From: Magnetococcales bacterium
GTDB taxonomy: Bacteria > Pseudomonadota > Magnetococcia > Magnetococcales > JADFYX01
Assembly (NCBI GenBank): GCA_002753565.1
Contig: PEAM01000034.1
Span: 1 to 37,181 of the forward strand
Reading direction: 5' to 3'
DNA: 37,181 nucleotides
Of this stretch, positions 22,967 to 37,181 are shown in pieces (within the stretch, counting starts at the first letter, position 1; every line of letters starts with the position of its first letter). The position numbers and the translations under genes were made by a program. The notes under the pieces were generated by a model. It saw only the letters and a list, made by a program, of their open reading frames with translations, had not been told where the DNA came from and ran no database searches.

Positions 22967-24433
22967 TCATGGGATGATTTCCGAGAGCCTCTTGGCCAAT
23001 ATTTCGGCCGTGATGCCATAGGCGAATTTGGTGATAAACTTGCCATCCTGTCCCATTAAAAACAGGCTGGCAGTATGGTTGACAGCATAATGCTCCGGAC
23101 CCCACTCCGGCAGCGGAACCTTCTCATAGCGGACCTTGAAACGCTCGACAGCCCGTTTAACCAAGGCCGGCTGGCCCGTCAAGGCAAGCAGGGTGGGGTG
23201 AAACGGTTCCATATACCCCCGCAGAGCCTCTGCGCTGTCTCGCTCTGGGTCTACGGTGATAAACAGAGGTTGGATAAGTTTAGCCTTTGTGCCGATTAAC
23301 GCCAACGCTTCTGAGACCACATAGAGGGTGTTGGGGCAGATATCCGGGCAGTTTGTGTAGCCGAAAAAGACCAGCATGAATTGACCCGCAAACTGCTCAC
23401 TGAGGACCGCCTGACCGTTTTGATCCATCAAAAGAAAGCGCCCCCCCACTTCTGAAGGGGAGAGAGGCTCTGTTTCATCCTTGTCAGAAGTTGGTGGGGG
23501 GGAGATAGAGTCCGGTTTGTTTGGTGTTTTGGTTGTGGCCGCAGCCCGACTGCTGAAAGAGAGCAGACAGTTGCGGATGGCAAAAAAGTTGTGCCGGATC
23601 AGCTTTTCATAGAGCTCCGGCCCGGCCTTCTGGGTAACCCCCAACGAGTCAAGCTCCACAAGGCGAAGCTTAGGCTGCTGGGCCAGCAGGGCCAGATGGG
23701 TCTGATCCAGACCCGCCTCGGTAAACAGGCAACTCCCCCCCCTGCCAGAGCTCTCTCCCAAGGTGGCAAGCAGACGGGGCAGGTTGGCTGGTTGAGTGGG
23801 GGAGGGGGAGAGAATGGTGTCGGACCGAAAGCCATAGGCCTGGGCAAAATAGTATTGAGTGTCGTGGTAGAGATAACCCGAAAGCCAGGAGACATCCCGA
23901 TAGGCATACTCCATCTCTCTCTCCAACCGAGAGATTTTCTCGTTGAGTTGGCGGCGGTTTTGCTCATAAAGATCGGCTCTGGCGGGGTCCAATTTGATGA
24001 GTTGTTGGCTCAGCATGCCGATGAGCATCTCGGCATTACGGACATCCAGCCAGAAAAAGGGGTCTCGGCTGGCGGGATCATAGCGGGCCGGCAGGACTTT
24101 GATCTCCTCACTGGCTAACAGTTCCAATTGGAATGGTACGCTGCCGTGCCCTTTGAGATAAGAGGCCACGGCCGGTTCCAACTCTGGCCCGGTCCAGATC
24201 AGCAGATCGGCCTGAGCGATGTTCTGCTGATCCTCTGCGGACAAAGAGGCGAAGTAGGGGGCCTGCTCACCATCAAACAGAAGAGCCGGCACAGCGACCC
24301 CTTTCATCAGGGCGGTGGTCAGAGAGTGGATCGGTTTGATGCTGACCGTCACCCGAGGAGGCTCTTGGGCAGAAGCTGGATTGGGGTACCCCAGCCAGAA
24401 GATTAAGGCAACGAGAAGGATGAACAGGCGCAT
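22967..24433 (-). CDS. Periplasmic fusion: ZnuA/TroA-like binding domain plus SCO1/SenC domain
   Basis: This 488-residue exported protein has a Sec signal peptide (cleavage probably after PASA, residues 19-22). Residues about 25-290 resemble metal-ABC binding proteins of the ZnuA/TroA class (SIKPIHSLTTALMKGV, ADLLIWTGPELEP, YHDTQYYFAQAYGF). Two usual metal-His positions appear replaced: APYFASL where a His-containing loop is normal, and DPFFWLD instead of DPHxWLD. A proline-rich linker joins it to a SCO1/SenC domain (about 330-488) with FGYTNCPDICPNTL (Cys362, Cys366), DPERD and NHTASLF (His453), the full copper-binding set. SCO1 proteins help build the CuA centre of cytochrome oxidase. The start ATG 24433 has GGAG six bases before it. 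It lies 23 bases after the small exported-protein gene. Confidence 0.85.
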   Translation of the reverse strand: MRLFILLVALIFWLGYPNPASAQEPPRVTVSIKPIHSLTTALMKGVAVPALLFDGEQAPYFASLSAEDQQNIAQADLLIWTGPELEPAVASYLKGHGSVPFQLELLASEEIKVLPARYDPASRDPFFWLDVRNAEMLIGMLSQQLIKLDPARADLYEQNRRQLNEKISRLEREMEYAYRDVSWLSGYLYHDTQYYFAQAYGFRSDTILSPSPTQPANLPRLLATLGESSGRGGSCLFTEAGLDQTHLALLAQQPKLRLVELDSLGVTQKAGPELYEKLIRHNFFAIRNCLLSFSSRAAATTKTPNKPDSISPPPTSDKDETEPLSPSEVGGRFLLMDQNGQAVLSEQFAGQFMLVFFGYTNCPDICPNTLYVVSEALALIGTKAKLIQPLFITVDPERDSAEALRGYMEPFHPTLLALTGQPALVKRAVERFKVRYEKVPLPEWGPEHYAVNHTASLFLMGQDGKFITKFAYGITAEILAKRLSEIIP

Positions 24434-24456: not shown

Positions 24457-24840
24457 TTAACGACCGGGCTGAAAAAAGTGTTGAAGCTGATCGATGGCGT
24501 GTTGAACGGTTGCCCGAAAGGCGATGGGATCAGGGCAGCTCTCTTGAGTGCGGGCTGCTCTTAAAAAGGCGTCGTTGGTGGCCGAAAAGAAGCTCTCCCG
24601 ATACTCCGGCAGCTTGGGAACCAGACCAACCATGGCCCCCTTGATTTTACGCACCTGATTGGGACGATTACAGTGCAGGGCAACCCCATTGACAGCCCCC
24701 AACGCCTCAATGACCTTATCGGCCTCTTCTGCCTGGGCGCTGGAAGAGAAGGTGGCTGCTCCCAACAGGAGGACCAGGCAAAGCAGGCTACCGCTAACCC
24801 TGGAGGATTGACCGGGTGTTTTTTCTCTGTTTAAGATCAT
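24457..24840 (-). CDS. Small exported protein of unknown function
   Basis: This protein of 127 residues has an N-terminal signal sequence (hydrophobic LLCLVLLLGAATF, likely cleavage after SAQA). The mature part of about 90 residues is helical and contains two Cys (LHCNRP and ESCPDP) that may form a disulfide. I chose ATG 24840 because AAGGA lies eight bases upstream; a longer in-frame start at 24882 is less likely. It sits between a DsbA-like protein and the SCO1 fusion in the same direction, so a periplasmic role in thiol or metal handling is a guess. I do not recognise the family. Confidence 0.75.
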   Translation of the reverse strand: MILNREKTPGQSSRVSGSLLCLVLLLGAATFSSSAQAEEADKVIEALGAVNGVALHCNRPNQVRKIKGAMVGLVPKLPEYRESFFSATNDAFLRAARTQESCPDPIAFRATVQHAIDQLQHFFQPGR

Positions 24841-24910
24841 TTTTTTATCCTTGAAGTCCAATAGGCTTCTGGGAAAAATCATAGATTGTCACCAAGGGGC
24901 ATGCCCACCC

Positions 24911-25561
24911 TCAATAGGCCTTGGCCAACTCCTCCTCCACCAACGTCTTGAGCGGTTCGAAACCAAAGCGGGGCAGGGGACGACCATTGACAAAAAACTC
25001 GGGGGTTTTGCTGACGTTGAGGGCGGCACCGTCTCGAAGATCTTTCTGGATGATTTCGTCCATTCCCGGTGCGTTCAGGTCACGGCCCAACTGTTCCAGA
25101 TCCATACCAAGAGGGCCGAGAAAGGTCCAGATTTTCTGGGGTTGTGGCGCCTCATGAGAGGCCCACTCCGACTGGGTGGCAAACATCACTTCCAGTGCTT
25201 GCCAGAACTTCCCCTGTTTGCGTGAGGCCTCCAACAATTTAACCAGATAGTCCGAGCCTTGATGAAAAGGGGCGTAGCGGGCCATAACCCTCAATTTTCC
25301 GGGGTATTGAGCCAGAAGATCCTCCACAAAAGGGTGGAATTGGGCGCAGGTGCCACAGGCCGGATCAAAAAATTCAACCAGGGTCACCTTGGCGTCGGCG
25401 CTCCCTTTGGCAGGCCCGTCGTGGCGGATCAACTTGGTGAGGTTTTTGGTTGCCTGTTGTTGCGAAAGAGTGGACTGGCTTTGATTATAATAGAGGGTGC
25501 CACCAATAAACAGCAGGCCGATTAAGGCCAGGGCAGAGAGAAAAAGCGTTTTCTTATTCAT
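24911..25561 (-). CDS. DsbA/BdbD-like periplasmic thiol-disulfide oxidoreductase
   Basis: This 216-residue protein has an N-terminal hydrophobic anchor or signal (about 5-25) and a thioredoxin-fold domain of the DsbA/BdbD class. The active site is DPACGTCAQF (Cys69, Cys72) and the cis-Pro loop is VSKTPEFFVNG. It would oxidise or isomerise disulfides in exported proteins. Its ATG overlaps the stop of the DsbB-like gene by four bases, so the two are translated together and very probably form a redox pair. The active-site dipeptide Gly-Thr differs from Pro-His of E. coli DsbA. Confidence 0.9.
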   Translation of the reverse strand: MNKKTLFLSALALIGLLFIGGTLYYNQSQSTLSQQQATKNLTKLIRHDGPAKGSADAKVTLVEFFDPACGTCAQFHPFVEDLLAQYPGKLRVMARYAPFHQGSDYLVKLLEASRKQGKFWQALEVMFATQSEWASHEAPQPQKIWTFLGPLGMDLEQLGRDLNAPGMDEIIQKDLRDGAALNVSKTPEFFVNGRPLPRFGFEPLKTLVEEELAKAY

Positions 25562-26076
25562 TTAGAGACCTTTTTAGAGACCAGAAGCAGCAGACCGATG
25601 ATCACCGTAAAGGAGAACAGAGACATCACCGGAATGGATAAAAAACCAAACCACTCAATTACATTCTCCGAGCAGGATACCCCTTTGGAGCAGGGTTGGA
25701 TACTTTTTGGAATGTAACCCATCGTCAAGGCGACCTGATAGAGGGCGATCAGCCAGCCCAGAATCGGCAGAGGCAGGAGATAGCGAACCACCCCAACATC
25801 CAGTGGAAACAGGCCCAGAGGCAGGATGAACACCAGTGGATACATGGCGATACGTTGATACCAGCACAACACGCAGGGGGTGACACCCATCACTTCGCTG
25901 AAAAAGAGGCTCCCCAGCATGGAGATGACGGCGATCAGCCAACAGACAAAAAGAAGCGTCCAGTCGCGGCCTGCTTTATGGGTTGGGGCGGGGGTGGTCA
26001 TGGTCACACTGTTTCGACTGTTGTTTTCTGGTTGCTCATCCACTTTTTGGGATGAGGGCGGCATTCCATTTGCCAA
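25558..26076 (-). CDS. DsbB/BdbC-like membrane disulfide-bond protein
   Basis: This membrane protein of up to 172 residues has four hydrophobic segments. The first pair of redox Cys is in TPCVLCWYQR (Cys68, Cys71) and the second pair is Cys129 and Cys135 in QPCSKGVSCSE. This is the classic DsbB/BdbC layout, which passes electrons from DsbA-like proteins to quinone. The start is uncertain. TTG 26076 has AAAGG eleven bases upstream, while the in-frame ATG at 26001 would give 147 residues, closer to usual BdbC length. The gene overlaps the DsbA-like gene by ATGA. Confidence 0.88.
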   Translation of the reverse strand: MANGMPPSSQKVDEQPENNSRNSVTMTTPAPTHKAGRDWTLLFVCWLIAVISMLGSLFFSEVMGVTPCVLCWYQRIAMYPLVFILPLGLFPLDVGVVRYLLPLPILGWLIALYQVALTMGYIPKSIQPCSKGVSCSENVIEWFGFLSIPVMSLFSFTVIIGLLLLVSKKVSK

Positions 26077-28661: not shown

Positions 28662-28715
28662 TCCGGGTTTCCGGGTTGAATGGACCGATGGTCGGAGTCT
28701 CAAGGATCACACCCT

Positions 28716-30773
28716 ATGGCCAACAAAAAGCAGTCTGAAGAGAAGCCCCTGATTTTTGTTGTCGATGATGACACCATTTTTCAGGAGATTCTGGCGCTCT
28801 TTTTAGAGAATAATGGCTATGGCGTCAAGCGGATCGATAGTGGATTCCAGGTGGTAGAGCTGTGTGACTCTCTGCAGCCAGATCTGATCATGATGGATGC
28901 CATCATGCCGGAAATGGATGGGTTTTCTACCTGTCAAAAACTCAAGGAAAACCCCAATACTGCGGATATACCGGTTATCATGGTCACCGGTAACGATGAT
29001 ACCAAATCGGTAGAAAAAGCTTTTGCCAGTGGGGCGGAAGAGTTTATTACCAAGCCGATTCACTGGCCTGTGTTACGGCAGCGGGTGCGGATCTACCTGG
29101 AGCGAAAAAAAAGCCAACTGGCCATGCGCGCCAGCGAGGAGCGGTTTCGCTCGGTAACCAACTCCACCATCGATGCTATTATCTCGGCTGACGAAAAGGG
29201 CCGGATTGTTTTTTGGAACAAGGGGGCGGAAAATGTCTTTGGCTATCGAGATGCCGAGATACTTGGGCAGTCGGTAACCAAACTGATGCCAAAACGGTTC
29301 AGAAAAGAGCATCTGGACGGTTTTAATCGCCTTGTGAATACCGGAATCTCCAAGTTTCAGGGTAATACCATCGAGCTCATTGGGGTGCGCAACGATGGAT
29401 CCAAGTTTCCTCTGGAGATCTCCATCACCTCCTCCAATGTCGCCGAAAAACGATATATTTCGGCTGTTCTTCGGGATATCACCGAGCGAAAACGGGTCTT
29501 GGGCAACCGAGAAGGGGTCGCCCTCTTCGATACCCACATCATCGAGCAGATCTACTCTCTTTGGCGCCAGGTTGCCAGTCGGGATGCCGGACAACTCTCT
29601 TTTATCAAGCTGAAGATCATCATGGAGATGGTCTTTTTAGCCGGCATTCAAAAAGAGGAGGGTGAGCCGATTCGTCTGGCTGTCTCTCTTCTCGATCGGG
29701 GGTTTCTCAAAGAGGATGAGAACTATAGCGATAACTCCATCCTGGTTTTCGATCAAAGCCTCCCCTTTGTTCTCGACTCGCTGGTCAAGTTAGCCTCTGG
29801 TTTTGATCCGGACACTACGGTTTTTGCCGTTAGCGGAGAGAGCGACCAAACAGAGTTGAAAATCTGGGGGGTGGTTTTTACCAGTAAACGGGGGAAAACC
29901 CGTCTGGACCCCTATCCTTTTATCCCGGAACCACTGGATGTTCTGACTGTCTCCTCCATCAAGGCCGGCTCTCTGACCATCTCCTGGGGTGGGCGGGTGT
30001 TGGCCAATTTCAACTCCGGGCACTTTTCCGAGACATCCCTGGTTCGAGCCACCTCTTGCCCACTGGCAGAGACCATGCTCAAGGGTATTCGTGATCATAA
30101 GGCCTATAAAAAAGGCGGGAACGCCTACTGGAGTGTCTATCAGGAGATGATCCGGTTGATGGTGAGGGAGGCGGCAAAACGGTGTCATGGTGGTACCATT
30201 ATCTGGCTCCCTGAAAAGCAGATTGGCGAGGTTGAAAAGTCTCTTCTTACCAAATATCCCACCGCCCAAAACCCCAACATACCAGCCAGTATTGCCCATT
30301 TATGTCTGTTGGAGAGAGAGCGGGAGAGAGGGGTTAAAAATAGGGGGAAGGGTCAGTTTGTCGAGGAGTTTGTGGATGTCAAGGTGTTGGAGGATACCAT
30401 CAACGAGTGTAAAAAACGGCTGGTGGACCACCTTGAATTTCTGGCTCAACTCACCCGTGTCGATGGCGCCCTGATACTCTCCCATAAAATGACCACCCTC
30501 TCTTTTGGTGCGGTTTTGACAGCTCCACAGTGGAAGGGGAATATTGAATATTTTCAGCCCTCCCTCTCAGATCAGATACAGCAGGTCAACCTGACCAACT
30601 ACGGCACTCGCCATATCTCTGCGGTTAATTTTGTCGGTCGATATCCAGGGGTTGTTGCCATTGTTATCTCTCAGGATGGCCCAATATCCTGCCTGATTCG
30701 AAAGGATAAAGAGACGGTTCTCTGGCTGCCTGACTACCTGAATTCTGATAACGGGTGGCGTGAAGAGCAGTAA
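28716..30773 (+). CDS. Response regulator REC-PAS with DACNV-like and diadenylate-cyclase-like (DisA_N) domains
   Basis: This 685-residue protein has four parts. The receiver (about 12-125) has all active residues (VVDDD, MMDAIMPEMDGF, KPIHWPVLRQRV). A PAS domain covers about 140-265. A region at about 285-480 resembles the DACNV sensor domains found before diadenylate cyclases (MVFLAGIQKEEGEPIRLAVS). The C-terminal domain has DGALIL (Asp583) and GTRHISA (Arg632, His633, Ile634), followed by VVAIVISQDG. These match the DGA and GTRHR motifs of DisA_N/DAC domains that join two ATP into c-di-AMP, but the last Arg of RHR is Ile, so activity is uncertain. ATG 28716 has AAGGA ten bases upstream and starts just before the receiver. 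It follows the REC-GGDEF gene by 54 bases. A phosphorelay-controlled DAC-type output is unusual. Confidence 0.8.
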   Translation: MANKKQSEEKPLIFVVDDDTIFQEILALFLENNGYGVKRIDSGFQVVELCDSLQPDLIMMDAIMPEMDGFSTCQKLKENPNTADIPVIMVTGNDDTKSVEKAFASGAEEFITKPIHWPVLRQRVRIYLERKKSQLAMRASEERFRSVTNSTIDAIISADEKGRIVFWNKGAENVFGYRDAEILGQSVTKLMPKRFRKEHLDGFNRLVNTGISKFQGNTIELIGVRNDGSKFPLEISITSSNVAEKRYISAVLRDITERKRVLGNREGVALFDTHIIEQIYSLWRQVASRDAGQLSFIKLKIIMEMVFLAGIQKEEGEPIRLAVSLLDRGFLKEDENYSDNSILVFDQSLPFVLDSLVKLASGFDPDTTVFAVSGESDQTELKIWGVVFTSKRGKTRLDPYPFIPEPLDVLTVSSIKAGSLTISWGGRVLANFNSGHFSETSLVRATSCPLAETMLKGIRDHKAYKKGGNAYWSVYQEMIRLMVREAAKRCHGGTIIWLPEKQIGEVEKSLLTKYPTAQNPNIPASIAHLCLLERERERGVKNRGKGQFVEEFVDVKVLEDTINECKKRLVDHLEFLAQLTRVDGALILSHKMTTLSFGAVLTAPQWKGNIEYFQPSLSDQIQQVNLTNYGTRHISAVNFVGRYPGVVAIVISQDGPISCLIRKDKETVLWLPDYLNSDNGWREEQ

Positions 30774-34263: not shown

Positions 34264-37181
<2,918 letters not shown>

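Follow-up and report, generated by a model that had tools for sequence, protein, structure and literature searches.

Clade II N2O reducers act as a sink of N2O, a greenhouse gas. SCO proteins classically serve the CuA site of cytochrome oxidase, and PCuAC is a copper donor. N2O reductase (NosZ) fails without copper, and NosL serves its CuZ site, according to excerpts of one account (PMC6530538). SCO and PCuAC relatives have been implicated in loading the CuA site of Paracoccus NosZ, and when copper is low, N2O reduction in this genus is affected by senC2 and pcuC (excerpts of PMC7558416). In an Acidobacteriota strain and in Opitutus, clade II nosZ is preceded by a SCO gene (excerpts of PMC13122619).

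The window considered here, that is, the whole stretch of Magnetococcales DNA that was analyzed (37,181 nucleotides), encodes a fusion of a ZnuA-like domain with a SCO1/SenC domain. The second half resembles SCO1/SenC/ScoI proteins (PF02630), including Paracoccus SenC2 as presented in excerpts of PMC7558416, in its fold, its CxxxC and His copper site, and its occurrence in a genome with a CuA enzyme (NosZ). In contrast to these proteins, the SCO domain of the fusion sits behind a ZnuA-like domain, and the fusion has a probable signal peptide instead of the usual N-terminal anchor and is paired with a small two-Cys protein instead of PCuAC. The first half shares with ZnuA and cluster A-I proteins (PF01297; AztC, TroA, PsaA) the overall domain, the disulfide Cys positions, and an Asp at the fourth ligand position, but carries Tyr/Phe in place of His ligands, lacks the His-rich loop, and has no adjacent ABC permease or ATPase gene. 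With NosL and NosDFY, which act in assembly of the NosZ CuZ site, the fusion shares the gene neighborhood and probably the client enzyme; the families are unrelated, and the SCO domain suggests CuA, whereas NosL serves CuZ (excerpts of PMC6530538). The gene of the Acidobacteriota strain and Opitutus likewise links SCO to clade II nosZ, but the excerpts of that report (PMC13122619) describe it merely as a 'SCO family protein' and mention no ZnuA-like half or small partner. In open-licence PMC full text, we found no paper describing the fusion or the gene pair; one outside this collection could exist.

Domains and metal sites of the fusion protein

The fusion gene occupies positions 22967..24433 of the minus strand, with the ATG at 24433 and the stop codon at 22967-22969, and encodes 488 amino acids; all features of the fusion described below are on the same strand. 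Residues 1-23 (24365..24433) read as a probable Sec signal peptide ending in ASA-Q, with residues 2-15 forming a helix in the model. No lipobox was seen in the N-terminus, where a hydrophobic helix or signal peptide is the only candidate membrane anchor in the sequence and the model. The ZnuA-like domain (residues 28-289; 23567..24352) matches PF01297 at an E value of 5.8e-32 and 111.6 bits, compared with a cut-off of 29, and the SCO1/SenC domain (residues 330-466; 23036..23446) matches PF02630 at 8.1e-45 and 152.5 bits, compared with a cut-off of 22.8. They are joined by a low-complexity linker (residues 290-329; 23447..23566) with pLDDT below 50 across most of its length, in a region partly within an unusable stretch of the model. 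The open reading frame and the two Pfam domains together bear out the ZnuA-like/SCO1 fusion proposed in an earlier note on this DNA.

Solved relatives are ZnuA/PsaA-type proteins for the first half and ScoI/SCO1 for the second. The AlphaFold2 model agrees for the SCO half, for which the best Foldseek match is ScoI (4wbj; TMt 0.92), and for the first lobe of the ZnuA-like half. The input alignment placed most ZnuA C-lobes onto the SCO half, which makes residues 206-311 of the model unusable.

In an alignment to ZnuA homologues, the canonical H-H-H-D ligand columns correspond to Tyr60 (24254..24256), Phe126 (24056..24058), His190 (23864..23866), and Asp262 (23648..23650) of the fusion, the fourth position being assessed on sequence alone given the unusable part of the model. 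Thus, the first two His ligands are replaced, as the earlier note had suspected, and the last two ligands are kept. The His-rich loop of ZnuA is absent between residues 112 and 124. The ZnuA homologues first fetched have H-H-H-D throughout, several rows of that comparison being repeat fetches of one gene, and four more ZnuA genes from another class likewise keep the His ligands. The copper site of the SCO half, which the same note considered intact, indeed is: the two Cys of the CPDIC motif (Cys362 and Cys366; 23336..23350) and His453 (23075..23077) align with the solved ScoI structure 4wbj. Both Cys are present in 14/14 fusions and the His in 13/13 fusions that reach this position.

The 14 fusions include that of the window; the other 13 are in gammaproteobacterial genomes, a designation that includes the class of genome G343, whose name is inferred. 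Together with the N-terminal half from the sister genome G004 and two unfused domains, they make up a 17-row alignment of the ZnuA-like half. Position 60 is Tyr in 11 rows, Phe in four, Leu in one, and a gap in one (His in 0/16), and position 126 is Phe in 14 and Tyr in three (His in 0/17). Position 190 is Tyr in eight rows, Phe in four, His in four, and Asp in one, so that the His kept in the window fusion is replaced in 13 of the 17; position 262 is Asp in 15 of 16 rows and Asn in the other, one further row ending before it. Ligand loss in the ZnuA-like half is thus a trait of the whole family, which would represent a metal-binding fold that has kept its shape and lost its metal. An 'iron site' suggested by the Tyr, Tyr, His pattern of G004 found no support in the other members, which do not keep this pattern.

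The earlier note had allowed for the missing ligands being supplied by nearby residues. The amino acid sequence, on which the second lobe was judged, offers no nearby His, Cys, or Met to stand in for them, and structural compensation of this kind is probably absent. The ZnuA-like half could nevertheless bind metal, probably copper, through a different set of ligands, such as the invariant His36, Asp262, Glu/Asp239, Tyr60, and, where kept, His190, and hand it to the SCO half intramolecularly, in the role of PCuAC. His36 is invariant in 17/17 rows, Asp262 is conserved as described above, and position 239 is Glu or Asp throughout; furthermore, stand-alone SCO genes adjoin the gene for the copper donor PCuAC in the genome of the window, which makes a donor domain fused to SCO plausible. 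However, His is missing from all of positions 60, 126, and 190 in most family rows, there is no visible cluster of Met or Cys, and the two Cys (235 and 289) correspond to a pair that forms a structural disulfide in ZnuA. Canonical ZnuA proteins commonly have His36 as well, and it is therefore not a new ligand. Overall, we regard a new metal site as unlikely.

Partner gene and nos neighborhood

A small gene is located directly upstream of the family gene in 14/14 assessable loci (12 gammaproteobacterial fusions, the window, and G004; the contig of G1102 starts too close to the fusion for assessment). In the window, it occupies 24457..24882 (minus strand), with a likely start at M15 (24840), and encodes a small exported protein. 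The protein is 111-141 amino acids long across loci and has two Cys that are invariant in 8/8 aligned sequences; a two-sequence model predicts it to be helical. It has no Pfam match, and a fold search of the PDB returned no match (best E 2.5). Among 61 relatives, it was found in G000 and G004 only. The stop codon of the small gene overlaps the start of the fusion in nine loci (L132, L134, L135, L137, L139, L183, L184, L185, and L187), and in the window the two genes are separated by 23 bases. No small gene was seen next to either of the unfused genes (L133 and L138). In four gammaproteobacterial loci, an exported pentapeptide-repeat gene lies just 5' of the small gene (L132:9242-10000, L137:9517-10254, L184:10679-11542, and L188:1658-2410).

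The two-gene unit of the window comes after genes for a DsbB/BdbC-like disulfide oxidoreductase (25558..26076, minus strand) and a DsbA-like thioredoxin with a CGTC motif (24911..25561, minus strand). These overlap each other, and dsbA is apparently in the same operon as the unit, with 28 bases between it and the small gene. The surroundings of the fusion in the window consist of MFS, dsbB, dsbA, small, kinase, and regulator genes, with no ABC permease or ATPase gene adjacent.

Eleven of the 13 gammaproteobacterial fusions could be assessed for nos neighborhood, two contigs being too short. A nos cluster lies at most 10 kb from the fusion in nine of the 11: nos genes are within ~2.5 kb in seven (G889, G1077, G982, G1124, G1123, G1103, and G1131) and within ~10 kb in two (G952 and G840). 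In G823, no nos gene was found near the fusion and nosZ is on another contig; in G1129, none was found within 9 kb. These loci are not independent, because eight of the 13 fusions (five of the 11 assessable) belong to one GTDB family. The fusions of L132, L137, and L139 adjoin nos genes, with NosZ in L137 and NosD, NosG-like, NosF-like, NosY-like, or NosL among the three. The L137 NosZ matches TIGR04246 (Sec-dependent NosZ) at 3e-265, the L132 NosL match is slightly below the Pfam cut-off, and the other nos labels rest on similarity to labelled L132/L137 genes. Beside nosY, L132 also encodes a further small protein with a membrane anchor, Cys residues, and no Pfam assignment (L132:10805-11284, minus strand), which recurs in L162, L168, L171, L172, L183, L185, and L188, in L171 beside SCO and PCuAC genes, and is another candidate copper or NosZ accessory protein.

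We also compared the occurrence of the family and of NosZ across 80 genomes (48 Magnetococcales including that of the window, eight family-bearing gammaproteobacteria, and 24 others). Sec-type (clade II) NosZ exceeds the curated cut-off in 11 genomes, exactly those with the family or a fragment of it. In the remaining 69 it never does so, 23 of them having a NosZ match below the cut-off only. The 24 family-negative gammaproteobacterial genomes were taken in list order and are thus a non-random sample. A broader sample of 166 genomes of the class of G343 contains Sec-type NosZ in nine: all four sampled genomes that carry the family; G862, which has a ZnuA-like gene that lacks the ligands and falls outside the family; and four that have no close member (G775, G835, G859, and G886). 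G835 has stand-alone SCO and PCuAC genes ~5 kb from nosZ. In these data, therefore, the family implies Sec-type NosZ and the reverse does not hold; the four genomes with no close member indicate that the unit is not essential to clade II NosZ generally.

In the genome of the window, the unit is on contig C13 and the Sec-type nosZ cluster on C14 (L158:4074-13994); this NosZ has a CuA-type cupredoxin domain, and a CuA enzyme is thus present. Elsewhere in the order, beyond this genus, NosZ matches are below the Sec-type cut-off, unlike the C14 cluster, and the presence of the cluster in the genus is possibly the result of horizontal replacement. On C21, the same genome encodes a canonical ZnuA, accompanied by what looks like a permease gene. 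Its three further SCO genes lie beside PCuAC in two cases and near a gene that reads as CtaA-like in the third. Accordingly, the fusion is an extra, specialized copy.

In six of the 11 gammaproteobacterial loci, the 350 bases preceding the unit, whose first gene is either the small gene or a pentapeptide-repeat gene (several gene starts being estimated), contain a perfect TTGAT-N4-ATCAA box, an FNR/DNR-type motif. The 222,673 bases of the 13 scanned loci contain 11 such boxes in total. The boxes speak for a link of the unit with N2O reduction, and their absence from both Magnetococcales loci scanned speaks against it.

The nos neighborhood could alternatively reflect shared anaerobic regulation, the fusion being a general SCO protein that serves the CuA site of cytochrome oxidase or exchanges thiols in the periplasm. 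Oxidase CuA is the classic client of SCO proteins, the unit in the window comes after dsbB and dsbA and not after nos genes, and two gammaproteobacterial loci are near a cytochrome cd1 gene and NirT. Against a general SCO role stand the exact match with Sec-type NosZ in the 80 genomes, the adjacency of nos genes in seven of the 11 loci, and the three other SCO genes already available in the genome of the window. We consider this explanation quite unlikely.

Conservation and origin of the family

The ratio dN/dS of the N-terminal half is 0.087, 0.073, and 0.088 in the three close pairs whose dS could be measured, values comparable to those of the SCO half, and 0.255 at high dS in the pair formed by the window and G004; dS is saturated in the remaining pairs. 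In this half, 45 positions are invariant across 14 rows, a count that leaves out L180 and L188 (incomplete or gapped) and L039. The N-terminal half is thus under purifying selection. The absence of metal ligands and of the His-rich loop might suggest a decaying, functionless remnant of a zinc-binding protein that is carried along by the SCO half. Decay is very improbable in view of the dN/dS of 0.07-0.09, on which it was rejected, the invariant positions, and two genomes (G755 and G1048) that keep the N-terminal half with no SCO domain and with no small gene nearby.

The earlier note called for a search for the same fusion in other genomes, and the 13 further fusions have the domain order and linker position of the window. 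No fusion was found outside the genus of the window in 398 Pseudomonadota genomes and 385 genomes of another class. Among 369 genomes of the class of G343, eight have an N-terminal half at 37-42% identity: six are fusions of 471-499 amino acids (L132, L134, L135, L136, L137, and L139), and two are unfused (L133 and L138). When 41 genomes from a single order were searched with a profile, G889 was recovered again and seven fusions were added (G1102, G1103, G1117, G1123, G1124, G1129, and G1131, the last split over two contigs). Restriction of the fusion to one genus is rejected by the fusions in the class of G343.

The closest relatives of the fusion are from Magnetococcales. In sister genome G004, the contig ends within the gene, leaving the N-terminal half (53% identity), and in sister genome G001 the contig begins within it, leaving the SCO tail (70% identity); neither half was found in G002 and G003. 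Although these contig ends leave the fusion unseen as a whole in the sister genomes, its recurrence in the same order and with the same linker position in 13 gammaproteobacterial genomes in practice excludes a chimeric assembly or a sequencing error joining two genes, the possibility raised in the earlier note, and an assembly error is almost certainly not the explanation.

In the trees, the 17 family N-terminal halves fall on one side of a branch with support of 100/100 (the first tree was built without one malformed row), and 13 SCO halves group together with an SH-aLRT of 99 in a quick tree. Both halves are separate from the sampled stand-alone copies, including those of the genome of the window, and an origin from that genome's own ZnuA and SCO copies is rejected. 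As each half forms a single clade, the trees point to one origin of the fusion, which is a conserved family and no private oddity. The unfused L138 nests beside the fused L134 and L135, suggesting secondary loss of SCO. The stand-alone ZnuA-like gene of G862, a genome with Sec-type NosZ, also lacks the ligands (L167:7630-8448, minus strand); it is outside the family on a long branch and is therefore excluded from the family count, its ligand loss possibly being an independent event. A plasmid search gave 63 records, of which the 15 listed are ordinary ZnuA-like matches at 23-29% identity, and a second plasmid search yielded nothing at 1e-40.

Proposed role in copper loading of NosZ

Relatives of the gene pair adjoin N2O reductase genes, and the pair therefore probably helps put copper into Sec-exported (clade II) NosZ, most likely into its CuA center. 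SCO and PCuAC are tied to CuA loading, NosL is tied to CuZ, and a SCO gene precedes clade II nosZ; on these grounds, we interpret the fusion as an assembly factor for CuA. Like other SCO proteins, the SCO half would bind copper and/or reduce the cysteines of the CuA site. The ZnuA-like half would no longer carry metal at its old site; unable to bind metal in the manner of ZnuA yet conserved, it may instead bind a protein partner. Its conserved aromatic cleft could hold the small protein or NosZ, and the SCO half would thereby be brought to its client. Copper transfer, docking, and the choice of partner by the fusion are what we infer from these comparisons. Counting against this reading are the separate contigs of unit and nosZ in the genome of the window and in G823, the locus of G1129 away from nos genes, the four Sec-type NosZ genomes that lack a close family member, the two genomes with an N-terminal half only, and the origin of eight fusions in a single GTDB family.

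The earlier note suggested that the first half may have turned into a docking or copper-delivery module. The lost ligands and the intact SCO site fit this suggestion, in which docking is the conjectural part; the case is now stronger than that note could know, since ligand loss is conserved family-wide under purifying selection. The two-gene unit, Sec-type NosZ as the likely client, and the retention of His190 and Asp262 in the window fusion, with His190 lost in most relatives, go beyond what that note described. We tentatively suggest that the ligand-free ZnuA fold may have been recast as a receptor that binds the two-Cys protein and/or NosZ and presents the tethered SCO domain to the CuA site, replacing the pair of SCO and PCuAC and providing a distinct copper-loading route for Sec-exported NosZ. 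Two genes, one of them of no known family, are thereby named as candidate NosZ assembly factors, through which the loading of the CuA site in Sec-exported NosZ becomes a directly testable question.

Two other open reading frames of the window were also considered. The low-complexity frame at 34617-36521 (minus strand) resembles models of staphylococcal SD-repeat adhesins at scores well under the cut-offs, a match that is probably compositional. The frame at 28680-30773 (plus strand) combines a response regulator, a PAS domain, a DACNV sensor, and a weak match to DAC (DisA-like cyclase), and possibly encodes a cyclic-di-AMP signaling protein.
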